A DNA stretch of 47,724 bases, from the NCBI GenBank assembly GCA_016183175.1, contig JACPFC010000092.1, positions 1 to 47,724 on the forward strand, given 5' to 3'. A program made the translations under genes and the position numbers. Shown piece by piece: positions 572 to 44,951 of this stretch (positions within the stretch are counted from its first letter, which is position 1; every line of letters begins with the position of its first letter). This stretch comes from Deltaproteobacteria bacterium (GTDB taxonomy: Bacteria > UBA10199 > SBBF01). A model generated the notes under the pieces. It searched no databases. It had not been told where the DNA came from and worked only from the letters and a program-made list of their open reading frames with translations.

Positions 572-3698
<3,127 letters not shown>

Positions 3699-27450: not shown

Positions 27451-29977
27451 TCACGGCTGAACCACCGACAAAACATACCGGTCGAGCGTCAAATATTTCC
27501 GCGCGACTTCCAGAACCTCGTCGGAGGTCACCTTCATGATGTTTTTTGGATAATTTTCAAACTCGGCAAGGCCCAAACCGTAGAGTTCGTTTTTTGGATA
27601 ATTTTCAAACTCGGCAAGGCCCAAACCGTAGAGTTCGTTAAAGGCCAGCGTGGACGAGACGGCGGAGTTCCTCTGCAGGTCGATGTCGTAGTTTCCCACG
27701 ATGTAATTTTTGGCCCGATTGAGCTCCGTCTCGGGGACTTTTTCGCTCCTTATTTTTTCAAGCTCCTTTAAAATTCCGTCCAGCGCCGTCGATAATTTTC
27801 GCGGCTCGGTGCCCATATAGACCGAAAAAAATCCCGGCTCGATCCCTTCCACCAGGGCGGAGCTTACCGCATAGGCCAGCGATTGTTTGTCGCGCAGTTC
27901 CAGAAAAAGGCGCCCCCCCTGGCCCGACAGGATGTTGTTTGCCACCTCGAAGGCGTAGCGGTCGGGGCTCGCCAGGGTTGTCCCCAAAAAACCCAAAACG
28001 AGATGCGCCTGCATCTTTTCCTTTTTTACCTCCACTTTCCGGATGGATGTGGGAGAGGCCTCGGCTTTGAGCCGGGGATGAAGAAGGCGTTTTGGCTTTA
28101 TTTTCAACAGGCGGGGGGACAACATCTCCAAAAAAGATTCGCCCTCGAAGTCCCCCACGGCGCAGAAGACCATGTTGCGCGGGTCCATCAGTCCGGTATA
28201 AAAACGCCGCACCCGGTTAAGGGAAATTGATTTCACGGAATGATTGGTTCCGATCAACGAGAGACCGTACGGATGTTTTTTAAAGAGAGTCGCCTGGAAT
28301 TTTTCAAACGCCACGTGCGAGAGCGAGTCTTCCTGGTTTTTAATCGCCTCCAGCATCAGACGCCGTTCCTTGGCAAATTCCTTCGCGTCGAAGGCGGGGT
28401 TTGTCAGCACATCGCAAAAGAGATCCACCCCGGCTTCGGCCTTGTCCGACAAAAAACCGGACGAAACCCCCCACGAATTGCGTCCCGAATAACCTTCCAC
28501 ATGACCCGCGATCGACTCGGTGATTTCGGCGATTTTGAGGGCCGGTTTAGGCCGCCGGGAGCGGCCATTTTGAGCGAAATCAGCGGGACGCGGCGGTTTT
28601 TGCGGAGAAGAACCACAGCGCCGTTAACGAGGCGGTACTTATGAATGTCCCCCATCGTTTCGACCAGGCTGTATGGTTTTTTCCCAACCGGCCGTTTTTT
28701 TTGTTTGACGATTTGCGGGAAAGTGAGCGCGACTTTTTGCCTTTCCGGATGCAAAAGAACCGTGGAGGCGCGGGAGCCGACAAGATACCGGTTGGCCGCC
28801 CGGCGAATATCGTATTCGGTCGCCCGGTCGATGGCATTCATGTATTCTTCCTCGAAACGATAGTTTCCGGCGGTGGTCTCGTAGAGCATCCATTTGCGGG
28901 CGGTCCCCTCGCAGGTTTCTTTTTCGTAGAAGACCGAGCTCTTGAGATTTAATTTGGCCCGCGCCAGATTTTCCGCGGGCGCCGGATTGTTTTTGAAAAA
29001 ATCGATCTCCTCGAAAACGGCGGGAAGAATCTTGTGCGCCTTGCCTGCCGGCAACTGAACGTCGATGACGAACAATCCGGAAAAGCGGGGGGTGAAGGCG
29101 TAGGAATGGACGTTGTTCACCAGCCCCTTCTTTTCCTTGACGATCTGCTCCAGCCGCGAGGTTTCGCCGTCGCCCAAAAGGTGCGAGAGGAGGTCGAGTG
29201 CGGCAATATCCGGGTGCGTGAACGAGGGGATGGGGAAGGCAAGATTGAGATAGGTTCCCTCCACCGGATTGGAAAGACGCAGAAGGCGCGGTTTGGAAGG
29301 GGGGGGTTCTTCGGGGAGAAGCGGAAATGTGACGGGACAGTCTGGTACTGTGCCGAATTGGGCATCGATCTCCCTCCTCATGACCCCTTCGTCAAAATCG
29401 CCGCAGACGCCGAGCACCATGTTTGAAGGGACATACCATCGTTGATAGAATTCATTGACTGTCTCCCGCGAAAAATTCCGCACCGTCGCCTCAAAACCGA
29501 TGACCGGCCGGCCGTAGGGGTGTGTCCGATAGGCCAGCCCGAAGAGCGCCTCGCCGACCAACTTGTGGGGGTTGTCCTTGCCCCGGCGGATTTCTTCGAG
29601 GACCACCTCTTTTTCGCGCGCCAGTTCCGAGGCGGAGTTTGCGCCGTCAAAGACCATCTCCTTGATGAGTTTCAGGCCCAGGTCGGAATAGCGGGAGCTC
29701 AAGTTGATGAAATAAACCGTCTGATCGAGCGAGGTGTAGGCGTTGATCTCGCCGCCCGAGCCCTCGACCAGCGTTGCAATTTCACCGGGACCGAAGCTTT
29801 TTGTCCCTTTGAAGACCATGTGCTCCAACAGATGGCTCAATCCCGCTTCTTTTTCGGTTTCCCACACGCTCCCCACCTTGACCCCCACATTGATCGAAAC
29901 CACCGGCATTCGAGCAGGACATCAAGGCCGTTTGCGAGGCGGTATTTTTTGACGTTTTGGAGGGAAACAAGTGTCAT
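27451..29977 (-). pseudogene. M16 zinc peptidase (pitrilysin family), frameshifted twice
   Basis: Reading from MTLVSLQNVKKYRLANGLDVLLE (29977) a frameshift near 29908 leads into MPVVSINVGVKVGSVWETEK with the inverted zinc motif HLLEH and the downstream LEEIRRGKDNP helix. After the second domain, near 28541-28550, ISLKMAAPGGLNRP breaks; the frame changes to ALKIAEITESIAGHVEGYSGRNSWG, the third domain. Compared with the family about 20 residues (normally GLSNLLARML and neighbours) are missing at that point, and a few at the first. In domain four a perfect 48-bp tandem duplication (27541-27588 and 27589-27636) repeats 16 residues in frame. An intact gene would encode about 840 residues, the length of two-lobed M16 proteases. 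Confidence 0.85.
27541..27636. repeat. perfect 48-bp tandem duplication in the M16 peptidase
   Basis: Two identical adjacent 48-base units, translated twice as the peptide NELYGLGLAEFENYPK. In frame. Confidence 0.97.
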
Positions 29978-33695: not shown

Positions 33696-34549
33696 GCGCC
33701 CATTTTTTTCAGTTTGAAGACCCCTGGTTTTTTGCCTTGCTCCTTCTTTTGCCTTTTATTTATCTCTTTTCCCGCACGGCCTCACACAGCGTCAAAATCA
33801 ACTTTTCCTCCCTCAAACTTTTTAACGGTATCAGCCGTTCTTTCAAGGAGCGGTTTCAGTTTGTTGTTCCCTTCCTTGGGACGGCGGCGCTGGCCCTCTT
33901 TATTGCGGGGCTGGCCCGGCCCCAGCTGGGGAACAGGACGACCGAAAGTTTAAGCGAAGGGATCGACATCCTTCTGACCATCGACACCTCGGGGAGCATG
34001 AAGGCCCTCGATTTTCATAGGACTTTTTTAAAATGGGTGCGCATCGGCATTGTGGGCGACGGCACCGCCATCGGCAATGCGCTGGCGACGAGCGTCAAGA
34101 GGTTGAAGGACCAGCCGGCCAAGTCGAAAATCATTATTTTGTTGACCGATGGGCGGAGCAATGCCGGCGAAATCGCCCCGCTGACGGCGGCGGCAATCGC
34201 CAAAGAATTCGGCATCAAGGTTTACACCATCGGCGTGGGGGGGAAGGGGCCGGTCCCCTACCCCGAGGAGACCCCCTTCGGCGTGCGTCGGATCTATGCC
34301 GAGCTCGACCAGGACGAAGAGACGTTGAAAGAGATCGCCCTCATCACGGGGGGGAAATATTTTTCCGCCGTCAACACCGAGGAGCTTGAGGAGATCTATG
34401 CCACGATCGACAAACTCGAAAAAACGGAGGTAAAGGTCAAGGAGTACAGCGAATACTTTGAACTCTATCCCTGGTTTTTGCTGGCGGGCCTTGTTCTTTT
34501 GGCTTTGCAGGCGGTCTTGTCGCAGACGGTATTTGTGAGGATTCCATGA
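33692..34549 (+). CDS. BatA-like vWA protein with shortened vWA domain
   Basis: A 285-residue membrane protein with helices at about 10-27, 57-76 and 262-280. The vWA MIDAS loop DTSGS is at 98-102, followed by MKALDF. The family then normally has about 45-50 residues (an NRLEAAK helix, DRIGLVVFAG and the CPLTLDY region) before reaching the LKWVRIGIVGDGTAIG region; here they are missing without loss of frame. T125 of GDGTAIG would be the MIDAS threonine. Usual BatA length is about 320-335. The junction is near 34011-34026. The fold of the vWA core would be damaged if the deletion is real. It overlaps the batB start by four bases. Confidence 0.85.
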   Translation: MSAHFFQFEDPWFFALLLLLPFIYLFSRTASHSVKINFSSLKLFNGISRSFKERFQFVVPFLGTAALALFIAGLARPQLGNRTTESLSEGIDILLTIDTSGSMKALDFHRTFLKWVRIGIVGDGTAIGNALATSVKRLKDQPAKSKIIILLTDGRSNAGEIAPLTAAAIAKEFGIKVYTIGVGGKGPVPYPEETPFGVRRIYAELDQDEETLKEIALITGGKYFSAVNTEELEEIYATIDKLEKTEVKVKEYSEYFELYPWFLLAGLVLLALQAVLSQTVFVRIP

Positions 34550-35595
34550 AATTCATCGCTCTCCAATACATCTGGCTCTTCTGGTTCGTGCCGCTCGCGG
34601 TGTTTTTTTATCTTTGGGCCGGAATCCGGCGGCGGAAAAGAACGGAGGCCCTTATCTCCCGCGACCTGTGGGCCTCCATCATGCCGGGGTTTCGCCCGGC
34701 GCGCCGCATCTTCAAGGCGGTTCTCGTTGTCCTTGGGATTTTTTTTGTCTGTACTGCGCTCCTCCGGCCGCAGTGGGGCTATACCCTGCGCGAGGTGAAA
34801 CGGAAGGGGATCGACCTTTATGTTCTGGTTGACACCTCCGATTCGATGATGGCCGAGGATATCTCGCCCAACCGGATGGAAAGGGCCAAGCGGGAGCTTG
34901 TCGATCTGATGAAGTATCTGCATGGCGACCGGATCGGGCTGATCGCTTTTGCCGGGAGGCCTTTTGTCGCTTGCCCGCTTACCACCGACTATGAGGCCTT
35001 CGGACTTTTTTTGGACACGCTCGACACCGACCTGATTCCCGTCCAGGGAACCGACATTTCGGGGGCGGTGGAGACGGCGCTTAATTCCTTTCCGCCGGAT
35101 GCACAGCGCTCAAAGGCAATAATCCTCATCACCGACGGCGAGGACACCCGGGGAGGGATGGCGCAAGCGGCCCAAAAAGCAAAAGAGGGGGAAGTGCGGA
35201 TTTTTGTGATCGGCATGGGGAGTGAAAAGGGGGCCCCCATTCCTCTTCGTGAGGGGAGCGGATTCAAGAAGGATAAAAATGGAGGCGTCGTCATATCAAG
35301 GCTGGATGAGTCGTCCCTGCAACAACTGGCTCTGGCAACCGGCGGGAGCTACGTCCGTTCGGTCACCGGAGACCTCGACCTGGAGCAGATTTATTTGAAG
35401 GGGATCAAGGAGGTTCTGGAGGCGCGGGAGTTGAAATCGGAAAGCAAAATTGTGGGGGAGGAGCGGTTTCAGCTTCCACTTCTGTTGGCCCTTCTGCTTC
35501 TGCTTTTGGAACCCTTCGTGGGGGAGACAAAGGCGCCGATAAAATGGGGGAAAATTTTGTTGCCCTTGTTGGGAAGGACAAGAAATTCCAGGTGA
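34546..35595 (+). CDS. BatB-like vWA membrane protein
   Basis: A 349-residue protein with two N-terminal helices (residues 7-25 and 57-74), an intact vWA domain with MIDAS loop DTSDS (96-100), DRIGLIAFAGRPFVACPLT, GTDISGAV and ITDGED, and a C-terminal helix (QLPLLLALLLLLLEP). Unlike its BatA neighbour it keeps the whole domain, which makes it a good internal standard. Bat proteins (Bacteroides aerotolerance type) form a membrane complex of uncertain role in stress or envelope maintenance. Confidence 0.9.
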   Translation: MKFIALQYIWLFWFVPLAVFFYLWAGIRRRKRTEALISRDLWASIMPGFRPARRIFKAVLVVLGIFFVCTALLRPQWGYTLREVKRKGIDLYVLVDTSDSMMAEDISPNRMERAKRELVDLMKYLHGDRIGLIAFAGRPFVACPLTTDYEAFGLFLDTLDTDLIPVQGTDISGAVETALNSFPPDAQRSKAIILITDGEDTRGGMAQAAQKAKEGEVRIFVIGMGSEKGAPIPLREGSGFKKDKNGGVVISRLDESSLQQLALATGGSYVRSVTGDLDLEQIYLKGIKEVLEARELKSESKIVGEERFQLPLLLALLLLLLEPFVGETKAPIKWGKILLPLLGRTRNSR

Positions 35596-35597
35596 CA

Positions 35598-35754
35598 AAT
35601 GTCAAATTCCAAATTCCAAATTCCAAACAAATTTCAAAAATCGAATTTCCAAAGTTCAAAAAAAATCGGTTTTAGAAATTTGAGTTTGTCTTTTGGTCTT
35701 TTTTTTGGAATTTGGATTTTGGAATTTGGAGTTTCCACGCCAACAGCGTGGGCG
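35598..35754. repeat. palindromic repeat R6, copy forming the batC signal peptide
   Basis: TGTCAAATTCCAAATTCCAA at the left is matched by TTTGGAATTTGG and TTTTGGAATTTG at the right, followed by a small second palindrome CACGC/GCGTG (about 35738-35752). The whole element is translated as the first 50 residues of BatC. Confidence 0.8.
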
Positions 35755-36531
35755 GCCCCCTTTGCCTTCGACCGCGCCAACGGACATTATGAAAAGGAAA
35801 ATTACCGGGAGGCCTTGCGTCTTTACGAGGAATCCCTGAAAAAAAATCCGGAAAACAGCAAGGCCCATTACAATCTGGGGGACGCCTATTACCGGGTGGG
35901 GGACTACCAAAAGGCCGAGGCGCATTATCTCAAGGCGTTGAACGCGAAAGACCCTTCCATCCGGGAGTTTTCGCTCTACAATCTCGGCAACGCCAAGTAC
36001 CGGCAGAATAAGCTTGAGGAATCGGTCGCCTATTACGACAAGGCGCTTGAGATGAACCCCAAAAACGAGAAGGCGGAGCTGAACCGCGAGTTCGTGAAGA
36101 AGCTGATGGAACAGAAAGAACAACAACAAAAACAGGAGCAACAACAAAAGCAGGAGGGGCAGAAGGAAGAGGCGCAAAATCAGAAACAACCAGGAGAGGA
36201 ACAACAAAAAGATCAACAACAGCAGCAGGGGCAACAGCAGGAACAACAACAGGAACAAAATCAGCAACAACAGGATCAACAGCAACAGCAGGGTGAACAG
36301 AAAGAATCCGAGGAGGCGCAGACAGACCAATCCGGCGATTCACCATCGAATCCGTTGGACAAGACCGGGGGTGAGGGGCAGAATCAGGCGAAAAAGCCCG
36401 TCCAACCCCTTTCAAAGGAAGAGGCCGAATTCTGGCTGGGGGCGGTGGAGGACGACCCCAAAAAGGCGGCACGGGATATCATCCGCCGCGAGGCGGGAAA
36501 AGGGAAGAGGACGGTGGAGGAAGACTGGTAG
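35599..36531 (+). CDS. BatC-like TPR protein with glutamine-rich tail
   Basis: A 310-residue protein. An N-terminal export signal is formed by a basic stretch (SKFQIPNKFQKSN...KK) and a hydrophobic core (LSFGLFFGIWILEFGV) ending in TAWA before APFAFD. Three TPR units follow (residues about 57-160: AHYNLGDAYYRVGDYQKAE, SLYNLGNAKYRQNKLEESV). A roughly 70-residue stretch rich in glutamine and glutamate comes next (EQQQKQEQQQKQEG...), encoded by CAA/CAG-rich DNA. A conserved end has SKEEAEFWLGAVEDDPK. The signal peptide lies wholly in a palindromic repeat of family R6. It is likely a periplasmic adaptor of the Bat complex. Confidence 0.85.
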   Translation: MSNSKFQIPNKFQKSNFQSSKKIGFRNLSLSFGLFFGIWILEFGVSTPTAWAAPFAFDRANGHYEKENYREALRLYEESLKKNPENSKAHYNLGDAYYRVGDYQKAEAHYLKALNAKDPSIREFSLYNLGNAKYRQNKLEESVAYYDKALEMNPKNEKAELNREFVKKLMEQKEQQQKQEQQQKQEGQKEEAQNQKQPGEEQQKDQQQQQGQQQEQQQEQNQQQQDQQQQQGEQKESEEAQTDQSGDSPSNPLDKTGGEGQNQAKKPVQPLSKEEAEFWLGAVEDDPKKAARDIIRREAGKGKRTVEEDW

Positions 36532-36540
36532 GAAGGGAAA

Positions 36541-36645
36541 ATGTCAAATTTCAAATTTCAAATTTCAAAGAGGAGTTTGTTTTTTGTTTTTTTGTTTGTC
36601 CTTTGGATTTTGACATTTGGCATTCCCACGCCGCAGGCGTGGGCG
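36541..36645. repeat. palindromic repeat R6, copy forming the batD signal peptide
   Basis: ATGTCAAA (36541-36548) pairs with TTTGACAT (36609-36616). A second perfect palindrome CCCACGCC/GGCGTGGG lies at 36625-36643 and encodes the PTPQAWA cleavage region. Confidence 0.8.
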
Positions 36646-38469
36646 GAGGTAAGCGTCTCCGCCTCCCTCGACAAAAATCAGGCCACGCTGGAGGACGAAA
36701 TCTATCTCACCGTTACGGTTTCCGGCACCATGGCCTCGGCGGAACCGGTTTTGCCCCCCATGCCCGCCTTCAAGGCGATTCAGTCGGGAACCTCCTCCAG
36801 CATCCAGATCATCAACGGCGACGTCCAGACGAAAAAGGAATTTTCCTACATTCTCATTCCAAGGGACGAGGGCTCTTTTACCATCGACCCCATCACCGTC
36901 TTTTCCGGGGGGCATGAATACAAGAGTCAGCCTCTCTCCATCCGGATCGGCTCTGCTTCGACGGCTAGCCCGGTCCGGCCTGTGCCATCGCCTGGCGCCG
37001 GCCCTGCCGGTGGCGGCGCCACTGGCGGCCAGCCGACGTTTCCCGGCGGGTTCCCGCAACCGTTTGAAGGGGAACCGGGCGGCGATGAAGAGACGGCCCG
37101 GACAACCGAACAAAGGGAATACTGGATCACCGCCGAGGTCTCCAACCGCCAACCCTATGTGAACGAGCAGATTCTCTACACCTTCCGCTTTTACACGCGG
37201 GTGAATGTCGGCTCGGCCACGCTCACGGTGCCCGAGTTTCAGGATTTCTGGTCGGAGGAGGTGGTGCCGGAAAAAAAATACTACCAGACCATCGGCGGAC
37301 AAAAATATGTTGTCTCCGAAAAGGTTGTCGCCCTTTATCCGCTCAAGGCGGGGGAGCTGACGATCCCGGAAACGAGCCTGCGGGTCGAGGTGCCGGAAGA
37401 GGCGCGGAGCCGTTTTTTTAACGATTCCTTTTTCAGTTTTCCCTCCTTGAGAATGAAGCCGAAGTATCTTCGGGCAAAGCCGATCGCCCTTCAGGTCAAG
37501 CCTCTGCCACCCGACAAACCGGAAAATTTCACCAATCTCGTCGGCCAGTTCGGCCTTTCGGTGAACCTTTCCCAGCCGGAGATCAAGATGGGGGATTCCG
37601 CCATGCTCGATGTGGAAATTTCGGGACGGGGCAACGTGAAGGACGGCCTGCTTCCTTTCAACGCCGAATTGCCGGCCTTTAAGGTTTACGACGACCGTCC
37701 CGCCGTTGACACCGTTAAAAGCGAGGCGGGCATTCAGGGAAAAAAGAGCTTTAAAAAGGCGCTGGTGCCGACCCAGTCGGGCGAATATTCCATCCCCTCT
37801 TTTTCGGTTTCCTACTTCGACCCGCAAAAAGGGGCCTACGAGACGCTCGAGAGCCCCTCGTTGAGTTTGAGGGTTTTGCCCGCAGAGGCCGAACGCTTAA
37901 ATCCGGTGGCCGCCCAAACGCCTTCACAAACGGGAACGCAGTCAGCAATCATTCCGGAGGATATTGCGACCATTCACACCGATCCGGGGGCGCTCGAGAC
38001 ACACCGCTGGGGGATCGGCTTAAAAAGGTGTCTGGCGGCCGGCCTGTTTTTGCCCCCTCTGCTTTTCTTCGGAACGCTTGTTTTCAAGTGGCGGGAGGAA
38101 AAAATGGAGCGGAATGCCACTGCCACCAAAAGCCGGCTGGCCCTTCGGAATTTTTTAGGCCGGGCCGGAAGAGTTTCGGGGAGAAAAAAATCGGAAGACG
38201 AGGCGCTGGCCGCCCTCACCGACTCTCTCCGCGACTATGTGGGGGACCGTTGCGGGATCTATGGGCGGGGCCTGACCGTGGCCGACATCACGGCCGTCCT
38301 TACAGCCCGCGGTGTAACGCACGATTTGACCGCCGAACTTGGCCGGCTCATGCAGAGGCTGGAATCGGCCCGGTATGGGGGGGAGATCAAAGAGAGGCCC
38401 CTGGCGCAGTGGGTTCAGGAGGCGAAAGGCCTTGTCCGCACGATCGATCGGAAGGTGGGGAAAAGATAG
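36541..38469 (+). CDS. BatD-like oxygen-tolerance protein
   Basis: A 642-residue periplasmic membrane protein. The signal peptide (MSNFKFQISKRSLFFVFLFV...) ends in QAWA before EVSVSASLDKNQATLEDEI. Several immunoglobulin-like beta domains follow (DEIYLTVTVSG..., YVNEQILYTFRFYTR, VNLSQPEIKMGDSAMLDVEISG), as in BatD. A membrane helix lies near 501-519 and a cytoplasmic helical domain (DYVGDRCGIYGRGLTVADI) ends the protein. A good ribosome site (AGGAAGGGAAA) precedes the ATG, which confirms that translation begins inside the R6 repeat. A proline/glycine-rich linker (PGAGPAGGGATGGQP) is also present. Confidence 0.88.
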   Translation: MSNFKFQISKRSLFFVFLFVLWILTFGIPTPQAWAEVSVSASLDKNQATLEDEIYLTVTVSGTMASAEPVLPPMPAFKAIQSGTSSSIQIINGDVQTKKEFSYILIPRDEGSFTIDPITVFSGGHEYKSQPLSIRIGSASTASPVRPVPSPGAGPAGGGATGGQPTFPGGFPQPFEGEPGGDEETARTTEQREYWITAEVSNRQPYVNEQILYTFRFYTRVNVGSATLTVPEFQDFWSEEVVPEKKYYQTIGGQKYVVSEKVVALYPLKAGELTIPETSLRVEVPEEARSRFFNDSFFSFPSLRMKPKYLRAKPIALQVKPLPPDKPENFTNLVGQFGLSVNLSQPEIKMGDSAMLDVEISGRGNVKDGLLPFNAELPAFKVYDDRPAVDTVKSEAGIQGKKSFKKALVPTQSGEYSIPSFSVSYFDPQKGAYETLESPSLSLRVLPAEAERLNPVAAQTPSQTGTQSAIIPEDIATIHTDPGALETHRWGIGLKRCLAAGLFLPPLLFFGTLVFKWREEKMERNATATKSRLALRNFLGRAGRVSGRKKSEDEALAALTDSLRDYVGDRCGIYGRGLTVADITAVLTARGVTHDLTAELGRLMQRLESARYGGEIKERPLAQWVQEAKGLVRTIDRKVGKR

Positions 38470-38509
38470 TTGATAGTAGATGGTTGATGGTGGATGGTTG
38501 ATGGTGGGG
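38466..38509. repeat. GATGGTTGATGGT-type tandem units before batE
   Basis: Repeated imperfect units (TTGATAGTAGATGGTTGATGG, then TGGATGGTTGATGGTGG) fill the gap between batD and batE. The last unit provides the GGTGGGGA ribosome site for the start at 38519. A shorter similar run occurs in rarA near 13757-13775. Confidence 0.6.
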
Positions 38510-42310: not shown

Positions 42311-44951
42311 CGTAACTCTCGATAAAAGTTTCCGTGTATATCTTCCTCACTTTTTCGCGTAAAGCCAGGTATTTCTCCAAAAATTCGGCGGAATTTTTCA
42401 GTTTCAAATCGCGGGCGATCTCATCCAAAAAGGGGTCCTTTACGTTCCACCGGCGCTGGCTTCTCTGTTTGCGCAGATAGATCCTCGATTCGACATCCCT
42501 GTAAAAAGTGTAGGCCTCCACGAGAGGGGCAACCGTTGCCTCCGGCACAATCTTCAATTTAGCCAGAGTTTCAAGGCCGTCAAAGGTGTTGGCGGTGTGG
42601 AGTTTTGGAAAATCACGGCCGTGGATCAGTTGATGGTACTGGAGAAAAAATTCGATATCCATCACCCCTCCCTTTCCCCCCTTCATGTCGATAAATGACT
42701 CAGACTCGCGCGCAATCTCGCATTCCACGCGGGTCCGGAGGCGGTGCATCTCTTTGACAATGTTCGAGGAAAAGGGGCGTGAGTACAAAAGGGCGTCGAT
42801 ATGGTTCCTGACCAGGCGGGCGAAGTGCGGGGGGCCGGCAATGGGGCGGGCGCGCAGAAGCGACTGCCTCTCCCAGATCTGCGAGGCGGTTTTCTGGTAG
42901 TCGATGAATCCCTCGAGGCTTGTGACCAAAGGCCCCTGATGGCCGGAGGGGCGGAGTTCGGTGTCGATGGCATAAGCCCGGCCGGCGCGCGTGGTTAGGG
43001 AGAGGATGGAGATGAATTTCTGGACCAGCCGGGCAAAGTACTCTGAATTGCTTATTTTGCCCGCGCCCGTTGTCTCCCCCATCTGCGAAAAGATGAAAAT
43101 GAGATCAAGATCGGAGCCATAATTAATCTCGCGCCCCCCAAGTTTTCCCATCCCGACGGTCATGATATCGGCGTCGATGGGTCTTCCGTATTTCGGCTCC
43201 AGCTCGCGCAGGACGATCAAAAGCGTTTCCTGACAGATCGCCTCGGCCAAAAGAGAGAGACGGCAGAGGATGTCGCGGCGCGAAAAAGCGGGTTTCCACC
43301 CCAAAGAATCTGTCGATTCTTTGGGGACCCCGGGGTTATGCTCAAGCTCGACGATTTTTTTTATCTCGTCTTTTTTAAAATAGCGGATTTCGTCGAACCA
43401 GTCCTCCAATTTGGGCCACTGGGCCAAGCGGTCCTGAAGGGCCTGCCGATACTCGGTCAGCAGGGCCTCGTCTTTTTGCTCCGCGGAAGGGATTGTCGCA
43501 TTTTCGCTAGGGGTTCCACCCCAGAGAATCTGTCGATTCTCTGGGGACCCCGGGGTTCCACCCCAGAGAATCTGTCGATTCTCTGGGGACCCCGGGGTGG
43601 TCTCGGCAAAAAGGCTCTCGAATATCCGGTGAACGTTGTCGACGGCCGTTTCCAGTTGATCCTGAAACCGCTTGAGCGCCTCCTCCGGGTCCTTCTCGAA
43701 GTAACCCATCCGCCGGGCGGTTTTGAGTTGCTCCGCGGGATCGGGGGAGAGAAGGTGCGTCTGCCGCTCATCCTCCAACTGGAGGCGATGTTCCAGACGC
43801 CTCAAGAAGAGATAACTCTCTTTGAGGGAGGCCGCGTCCTTAAGGCTCACGAGGCCGGCTGTCTCCAGCCGGGCCAGCGTCTCGATGGTTCCGGTGTGGC
43901 GGATCTCCGGTTTTTTCCCTCCGTAAATCAGAAGGAACGCCTGCACAAAAAACTCAATCTCCCGAATGCCGCCGATTCCCAGTTTCACGTGAAATCCCTT
44001 CGGCGGTTTTTTATCAAGCTCGGCGCGGATCTTTTGCTTCATTGCCTGAATATGATGCAGGGCCGTCAGATCGAGCGACTTCCGATAGATAAAGGGTTCC
44101 ATCCTCTTCAGGAACTCCTCTCCCAGCGCGGGATCGCCGGCCAGAGGCCGCCCCTTGGTCCAGGCCTGCCTCTCCCAGTCGGCGCCGAAGTTTTCGTAAT
44201 ACGAAACCATCGCCGAAACCGAATTGACCAGCGTCCCCGCCGATCCTTCCGGCCGAAGGTCCCAGTCGACCCGGTAGAGGAATCCGTTCTCGGTCTCGTC
44301 TGCAAGCGCCTTTGTCACCCCCTGAACATGACGCACAAAAAACTGATGCCCCTCGTCACCTTCGGTGACGGCAACGAGATCGATATCCGAACTCAAATTC
44401 AATTCGCGCCCCCCCAGTTTTCCAAGGGCAAAAATGTGGTAGCGCCGTTTTTTCGGCGGGGGGAGAGGCGTTTTTTTCGCGGCAATCGACAAGGCGAAAA
44501 TCCGGCGGTCGACAGCCGTCACAATCGCCTCCGCCAGATCGCTTAATTCGGTCAGCACCACCTCGTCGGACGCACCGAAGGCCCGGCTGGCACCTGCGAG
44601 GTCTTTGGCCATGATCCGGAACAGTTCGCGGTATTTGTATCGGCGGATTTTTTTGAGCCACGGCTCCAATTCAGGAGAATCAATCCGGCCGAGCTCATGG
44701 CTGAAATGGGAGAGGGCCTTTGTTTTCTTTAGATACGGGGACTGAACCGCTTCGATGGCGGAGGCCGGGTGTCTCACGGCAAAACGGGCCAGAAACCGGC
44801 TGTTGCCGAATATTTTTGAGAGGGCCTCAAAGCCCAAGCCCTCTTTTGGGATTTTGATTTTCTGCGCCTTGGCCGCGGCGCAAAAACGCTCCCACTCGGC
44901 CTCGGCCTCATCGGGCATGGCGGAGAGGGCGAACGGTTTATTCAAGAGCAT
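42279..44951 (-). CDS. glnE: bifunctional glutamine synthetase adenylyltransferase GlnE
   Basis: An 890-residue two-headed enzyme that removes (N-half) and adds (C-half) AMP on glutamine synthetase in response to PII. Both nucleotidyltransferase sites are present: ALGKLGGRELNLSSDIDLV and GMGKLGGREINYGSDLDLIF. The regulatory linkers carry three copies of repeat R5: two tandem 14-residue units (TPGSPENRQILWGG twice) between the N-half and the linker, and a third (NPGVPKESTDSLGW) before the C-half. All stay in frame, and removing them gives a normal GlnE. No other nitrogen gene is adjacent. Confidence 0.93.
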   Translation of the reverse strand: MLLNKPFALSAMPDEAEAEWERFCAAAKAQKIKIPKEGLGFEALSKIFGNSRFLARFAVRHPASAIEAVQSPYLKKTKALSHFSHELGRIDSPELEPWLKKIRRYKYRELFRIMAKDLAGASRAFGASDEVVLTELSDLAEAIVTAVDRRIFALSIAAKKTPLPPPKKRRYHIFALGKLGGRELNLSSDIDLVAVTEGDEGHQFFVRHVQGVTKALADETENGFLYRVDWDLRPEGSAGTLVNSVSAMVSYYENFGADWERQAWTKGRPLAGDPALGEEFLKRMEPFIYRKSLDLTALHHIQAMKQKIRAELDKKPPKGFHVKLGIGGIREIEFFVQAFLLIYGGKKPEIRHTGTIETLARLETAGLVSLKDAASLKESYLFLRRLEHRLQLEDERQTHLLSPDPAEQLKTARRMGYFEKDPEEALKRFQDQLETAVDNVHRIFESLFAETTPGSPENRQILWGGTPGSPENRQILWGGTPSENATIPSAEQKDEALLTEYRQALQDRLAQWPKLEDWFDEIRYFKKDEIKKIVELEHNPGVPKESTDSLGWKPAFSRRDILCRLSLLAEAICQETLLIVLRELEPKYGRPIDADIMTVGMGKLGGREINYGSDLDLIFIFSQMGETTGAGKISNSEYFARLVQKFISILSLTTRAGRAYAIDTELRPSGHQGPLVTSLEGFIDYQKTASQIWERQSLLRARPIAGPPHFARLVRNHIDALLYSRPFSSNIVKEMHRLRTRVECEIARESESFIDMKGGKGGVMDIEFFLQYHQLIHGRDFPKLHTANTFDGLETLAKLKIVPEATVAPLVEAYTFYRDVESRIYLRKQRSQRRWNVKDPFLDEIARDLKLKNSAEFLEKYLALREKVRKIYTETFIESYDGRDIQATKK
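43296..43335. repeat. palindromic repeat R5, third copy in glnE
   Basis: CCCCAAAGAAT / ATTCTTTGGGG around CTGTCG, followed by ACCCCGGGG. It differs from the tandem copies at 43514-43597 by a compensated base pair (AAAGAAT/ATTCTTT against AGAGAAT/ATTCTCT). Confidence 0.9.
43514..43597. repeat. palindromic repeat R5, two tandem 42-bp copies in glnE
   Basis: Two identical 42-base units, each with CCCCAGAGAAT / ATTCTCTGGGG arms around CTGTCG and an ACCCCGGGG tail. 42 bases equal 14 codons, so the GlnE frame is kept. Confidence 0.95.

Follow-up and report, generated by a model that had tools for sequence, protein, structure and literature searches.

A dispersed palindrome of 7-nt units as the probable source of the signal peptides of BatC, BatD and other exported proteins in one bacterial genome

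Two adjacent genes, batC and batD, in a 47,724-nucleotide stretch from Deltaproteobacteria bacterium (the window: positions 1 to 47,724, forward strand, of contig JACPFC010000092.1, assembly GCA_016183175.1; GTDB lineage Bacteria; UBA10199; SBBF01) each start within an AT-rich inverted repeat, of 140 bp and 89 bp respectively, that is read in frame. These repeats belong to a family of imperfect palindromes, about 116 bp long and composed of 7-nt units, most copies of which lie between genes. We find it very probable that this dispersed palindrome landed at the 5' ends of genes for exported proteins and became their signal peptide, with related genomes carrying unrelated signals in the same proteins. 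With less assurance, we lean towards regarding the element as a frame- and strand-blind signal-peptide cassette, a stop-free subfamily of which repeatedly displaced native signals in one lineage and split a batBC fusion. An earlier reading of the window from its letters alone (the sequence-only reading) had proposed that a repeat was recruited here as an export signal; the comparison with relatives and the genome scan suggested with it both support this proposal, with export itself predicted from sequence.

Results

The repeats at batC and batD

The sequences, coordinates and translations at batC and batD, including the batD ribosome site at 36530-36538, agree with the sequence-only description (Table 1). 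The left arm is read as MSNSKFQIPNKFQ in BatC and as MSNFKFQISKR in BatD, and the right arm as FGLFFGIWILEFGV in BatC, where TPTAWA follows it, and as FVFLFVLWILTFGI in BatD, where TPQAWA does; an extra unit, AAATTCC, at 35583-35589 may also be part of the first element. The unit pair CAAATTYCAAATTYCAAA, allowing up to three mismatches, matches 13 times in the window vs 0.56 times expected from shuffles, while the unit-pair pattern with up to two mismatches matches 281 times in the whole genome vs twice with a reversed-pattern control. Because of both excesses and of the RNA folding (z of -5.3 for batC and -4.8 for batD, small GC hairpin included), the two repeats are not a matter of chance.

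A second small palindrome (CACGCC/GGCGTG) had been described as encoding the TAWA/QAWA ends; it is perfect only at batD (36625-36643) and imperfect at batC (35735-35752). Its strict form matches the batD copy alone in the whole genome, and we therefore rejected it both as a repeat family and as a second recruited repeat.

A heptamer-built palindrome dispersed through the genome

The source genome is a metagenome-assembled genome (MAG) of 2.35 Mb in 137 contigs, about 96% complete, from which elements were sampled by pattern in stretches around matches. This yielded 69 copies, 56 of them two-armed (median length 116 bp), so the repeat at batC and batD is real and, beyond what was first described, genome-wide rather than particular to that locus. 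Two subtypes are intermingled: a TCC-type, mainly CAAATTC, and a GTC-type with units such as CAAATGT and CAAAGTT. Tandem CAAATTC reads NSKFQIP and its complement FGIWNLE; as 7 is not divisible by 3, every frame gives one and the same heptapeptide, and none contains a stop. The TCC-type unit thus has no stop on either strand, whereas in the right arm the GTC-type complement has a TGA whichever frame is read. In-frame copies at gene starts accordingly divide as 11 of 25 TCC-type vs 0 of 44 GTC-type (Fisher p 2e-6), a restriction largely forced by stop codons and hence an explanation, not independent proof. When all 4^7 heptamers were surveyed, the hydrophobicity of the CAAATTC complement stood at the 73rd percentile of the stop-free ones; the unit is suited to signal peptides, though not unique.

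In size (100-200 bp), inverted structure, high copy number and mostly intergenic location, the element is a dispersed palindrome resembling miniature inverted-repeat transposable elements. Pairs on different contigs score up to 0.90 similarity, and the pattern is at background in two genomes of the same family (five matches in G001; eight in G002 vs 15 in the control). Viral contigs gave one match to the TCC unit and none to the GTC type. A REP-associated tyrosine transposase (RAYT) was considered as the source of the element and rejected: no intact Y1 (RAYT) gene was found in the genome, about 96% complete, and the sole Y1 trace is a partial PF01797 match over 54 positions, in an open frame of 70 aa away from the element. 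Other heptamer-like arrays were seen at L131 (about 325-415 and 2690-2725), namely an AGAAAGC/AGAGAGC palindrome and CATCCAC, and because these differ in sequence the genome appears to hold several heptamer-array families.

The sequence-only reading had the repeat recruited twice, side by side. Both genes do start in the repeat; the two events may not be fully separate, as the TPxAWA end is common to both. A local duplication or gene conversion might instead have copied one signal onto the other, an account that we consider possible but doubtful. The right arms are 77% identical, the TPxAWA end (the loose small palindrome) was found only at batC and batD within the scanned stretches, and an atpF/ppiC pair on one contig is likewise similar (rank 65 of 1540 pairs). 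On the other side, the batC and batD elements, compared as wholes, stand only at rank 976 of 1540 pairs in similarity, their left arms differ in unit type, and the batC right arm is nearer (85%) to another element.

Repeat-coded leaders of other exported-looking proteins

A scan of the source genome for further genes starting in the repeat, as had been suggested, found them, and two more were found in a genome of the same class and another family (G016). Eleven in-frame copies precede exported-looking proteins, and in seven of these the n-region and the h-region both come from the element: BatC, BatD, gamma-glutamyltransferase (GGT), AtpF, a PpiC-type lipoprotein, a PEBP protein and a lipoprotein with LLGC (Table 1). 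All ten full or partial repeat-coded leaders precede AxA-like sites or lipoboxes, giving the anatomy of Sec or lipoprotein signals (basic n-region, hydrophobic h-region, AxA or lipobox), with weak h-regions in BatC and AtpF. In the core, other residues often take the place of the polar N and E of the repeat peptide (WILEF in batC, WILTF in batD, WCLGF in GGT, WPLVI in PEBP). In a like-for-like comparison, the seven full coding copies have a slightly higher hydrophobicity in the best 15-residue window of their right arms than do the open frames of non-coding TCC copies (p 0.03; an earlier, smaller p included downstream native residues and is not to be relied on). The copies counted as coding were chosen among the 69 elements for their open frame and codon bias.

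The element is fused in frame to conserved protein genes (batC, batD, ggt, atpF, ppiC and pebp), and one arm stands inside nadC, at L061:2195-3070, where it is read as IQRVKFQIPNSKSQTGKLIEVEARN with the QRPTase domains intact. One arm precedes a pseudouridine synthase (L063), not an exported protein. The copy at L043, at first taken for a clear lipoprotein start, was downgraded, as its frame runs on from the upstream gene. There (around 2410-2511, minus strand) a large FG-GAP-like protein has the element at its C-terminal tail (GFGCSL...LFVGLFGGFLLLKK), and without a stop before the downstream lipoprotein-like sequence two genes are apparently fused in frame. The two leaders in G016 precede secretin-like and TPR-like proteins (named by eye); predicted repeat-coded leaders are thus not confined to the source genome.

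Relatives keep unrelated signals

Same-family orthologues of BatD, BatC and GGT and the same-order AtpF carry ordinary signals unrelated to the repeat that end at about the same residue. For BatD (cleavage marks, shown as /, were placed by us), the N-termini are MRYPISSTFFCLLMAIGLSAPAQ/ISVSA in G001 and MRKTLFLIVCSFFLAGIQTAQA/DVSVSAS in G002 vs ...LWILTFGIPTPQAWA/EVSVSAS, with its IPTPQAWA end, in the source genome. GGT of G002 reads MKKLFITILLLIIALPARA/YQPAVVSAHPEAS, and its 80% identity to the source GGT begins at the mature end (AYQPAVV). The repeat stands in place of an older signal, the outcome that the sequence-only reading had proposed to look for, and the change would have run from native signal to repeat because relatives without the element keep ordinary signals. 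The finding that would have counted against recruitment, the same peptide encoded by unrelated DNA, is replaced by its opposite: the BatD and GGT of relatives carry different peptides. No PEBP orthologue was found among seven relatives.

For batC, the comparison also bears on gene structure. The BatB and BatC domains lie in a single open frame in G002 and in G003 (same order), and the fused BatBC of G002 has an internal hydrophobic segment that ends SAWA. In the source genome, batB and batC share a frame, but the element carries at its left edge TGA (35593-35595) and a new ATG (35599), which separate them. The simplest account would be that the element replaced the internal segment between the domains and split the fusion.

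Could translation start downstream, with the repeat as a 5' leader? Several other elements are in frame and followed by a good ATG, before KamA-like (L048), ParB-like (L041), GspF-like (L060) and SppA-like (L055) proteins, all named by eye. At batC, batD, GGT and AtpF, no ATG or GTG stands between element and cleavage site (in batC and batD, only in-frame TTGs within the hydrophobic core), and without the repeat leader all four would lack a signal, which the compared orthologues have. A downstream start, which the sequence-only reading had itself named as a ground for refutation, is therefore highly improbable.

A further alternative is that the element is a selected RNA or DNA hairpin, regulatory or terminator-like, to which the peptide reading is incidental, any hydrophobic peptide being sufficient. 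The majority of copies are intergenic and the element RNAs fold well (z -2.6 to -10.7). Further, the thpR-recA spacer (L118:2376-2491; L210-L212) contains a GTC-type copy in the source genome, a palindrome of unrelated sequence in G002, yet another in G005 and none in G001, so that the hairpin may be the feature that is kept there. Some positions thus seem to hold a hairpin with a sequence that is swapped between lineages; recA was also considered as a clean empty site and rejected, given the unrelated palindrome of G002. Set against the hairpin as sole explanation, native signals are gone in the four compared genes, and coding copies run without a stop for 30-50 codons up to an AxA or lipobox at the orthologous cleavage site. 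We judge that explanation improbable, while hairpin and peptide use are not mutually exclusive and the hairpin may have a role alongside the peptide.

GTDB contigs scanned for ATGTCAAATTYCAAATTYCAAA gave 34 loci. Most were short frames, in genomes that were AT-rich or unrelated; few were long, and none clearly had a repeat-coded signal. Two open reading frames from unrelated phyla begin with the same motif, not as an export signal: MSNSKFQIPKRQ before a SUMT-like protein in Sunxiuqinia (L143) and MSNFKFQIQKLKN before a Mur-ligase-like protein in Roizmanbacteria (L156), both named by eye.

Discussion

Recruitment of the repeat as a signal peptide can be pictured as follows. A dispersed and probably non-autonomous palindrome of CAAATTC-type units would land at the 5' end of a gene for an exported protein, in some copies with the outer unit variant CAAATG giving the start codon. 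Its left arm would give a lysine-containing polar n-region (NSKFQIP) and its right arm a hydrophobic h-region (FGIW-L-FG), an order that a palindrome would offer on either strand. Adjoining host sequence would supply the c-region (AxA or lipobox), or the c-region would have evolved within it. At batC, the element would have entered a fused batBC between its two domains, with TGA and a new ATG splitting the gene. The sequences themselves show that the leaders are copies of the repeat, that the family is spread through the genome and missing from close relatives, that unrelated signals were replaced and that coding copies belong only to the stop-free subfamily; Sec export, cleavage, mobility and the order of these events are what we infer from the pattern.

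Several points weigh against this account. The leaders were identified as signal peptides by n/h/c anatomy and orthology, and the BatC h-region has a glutamate near its end and that of AtpF an arginine. Given that coding copies were chosen by open frame and codon bias, the enrichment for exported genes is descriptive, and the Fisher test is partly mechanical, since copies with stops cannot code. The L043 copy (C24) lacks a clear start, lying within a long frame from the upstream gene; no transposase source for the element was found in the genome; and the single TGA between batB and batC is read from a MAG assembly.

Repeats have met coding sequence before. In Yersinia YPO1552, a YPAL/RU-2 repeat gives a predicted signal peptide at a single locus (Delihas 2007, PMC2759123; review PMC2229807), and there too homologues have unrelated signals (PMC2759123). 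That case has one main locus and a protein of unassigned function, whereas the source genome has at least 10 leaders in conserved families and adds the comparison with close relatives and a 7-nt unit blind to frame and strand. Rickettsia palindromic elements lie in intergenic DNA and also within conserved proteins as in-frame fusions (Ogata 2000, via PMC2229807), as here, with the nadC copy (L061) in their style; compared by description, they are gene insertions, whereas our element mostly replaces a signal peptide. Correia elements, in the part of the review consulted, include stop-free subtypes fused to open reading frames and stop-bearing ones almost solely intergenic (107-bp/155-bp; PMC2229807), a split that parallels TCC- and GTC-type; they differ in sequence and architecture, and that part describes no signal-peptide role for them. 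Dispersed, mostly intergenic tandem 7-nt units are also known as class-3 sites of Geobacter metallireducens, five tandem heptamers folding back and drawn as such structures (PMC2700814), and as the heptanucleotide TAACTGA repeats of Beggiatoaceae (PMC4679880). Regulatory roles were proposed for both, unlike here, and the TAACTGA repeat read forward is non-coding, with stops in every frame.

Signal peptides are sequence-tolerant, and repeats were earlier suggested as raw material for new peptides. The published case that we found is a single predicted locus, while the source genome gives about ten, and what is new, as far as we searched the literature, is how many cases there are, how clearly native signals in conserved genes have been replaced, and that the unit is blind to frame. 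Because relatives keep the ancestral signals, the steps of recruitment are directly comparable. The 7-nt unit offers a simple reason for the suitability of the repeat: any frame on either strand yields a polar-then-hydrophobic peptide. If true, the batBC split would yield two separately exported or anchored proteins.

Coordinates and additional observations

Table 1. Positions of the features discussed, in the window or at the named locus
Feature	Position	Strand	Remarks
batB	34546..35595	+	same frame as batC; ends TGA 35593-35595, at left edge of element
AGGTGA, probable batC ribosome site	35590..35595	+	overlaps batB stop TGA; from sequence
Repeat element 1, TCC-type palindrome, 140 bp	35596..35735	+	
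batC, TPR protein, 310 aa	35599..36531	+	ATG within CAAATGTCAAATTCC
BatC signal peptide coded by repeat, MSNSKFQIPNKFQ...FGIWILEFGVSTPTAWA	35599..35754	+	predicted
Imperfect small palindrome CCACGC-CAACA-GCGTGG	35735..35752	.	codes c-region TPTAWA
batD ribosome site AGGAAGGGA	36530..36538	+	directly after batC stop TAG; from sequence
Repeat element 2, 89 bp	36538..36626	+	
batD, 642 aa	36541..38469	+	ATG within AAAATGTCAAATTTC; PF13584 domain from residue 41
BatD signal peptide coded by repeat, MSNFKFQISKRSLFFVFLFVLWILTFGIPTPQAWA	36541..36645	+	predicted
Small perfect GC hairpin CCCACGCC-GCA-GGCGTGGG	36625..36643	.	codes TPQAWA; unique in genome
GGT	L040		n- and h-region from element; ...GIFPAYA/YQPAVV
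AtpF, ATP synthase b subunit	L064		n- and h-region from element; ...LALA/VEEAVHHG
PpiC-type rotamase	L064		n- and h-region from element; LTSC lipobox
PEBP protein	L128		n- and h-region from element; ...TAMA/LEIKSS
Lipoprotein	L049		n- and h-region from element; LLGC
Two tandem paralogues	L046		mainly n-region from element; third neighbour with ordinary signal
Lipoprotein	L057		mainly n-region from element; ITAC
Copy C24	L043		continues in frame from upstream gene; no clear start

Between batD and batE, at 38465-38507 of the window, lies another 7-nt array, GATGGTT/GATGGTG in 5.9 copies, inside which a longer batE frame begins; batE itself likely starts further on, at the ATG of MSGIKPWILMM. 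The window also has two perfect tandem duplications, of 48 bp at 27541-27639 and of 42 bp at 43510-43598, inside long open reading frames that look by eye M16-peptidase-like and glnE-like, and these duplications are recent as judged by their identity.
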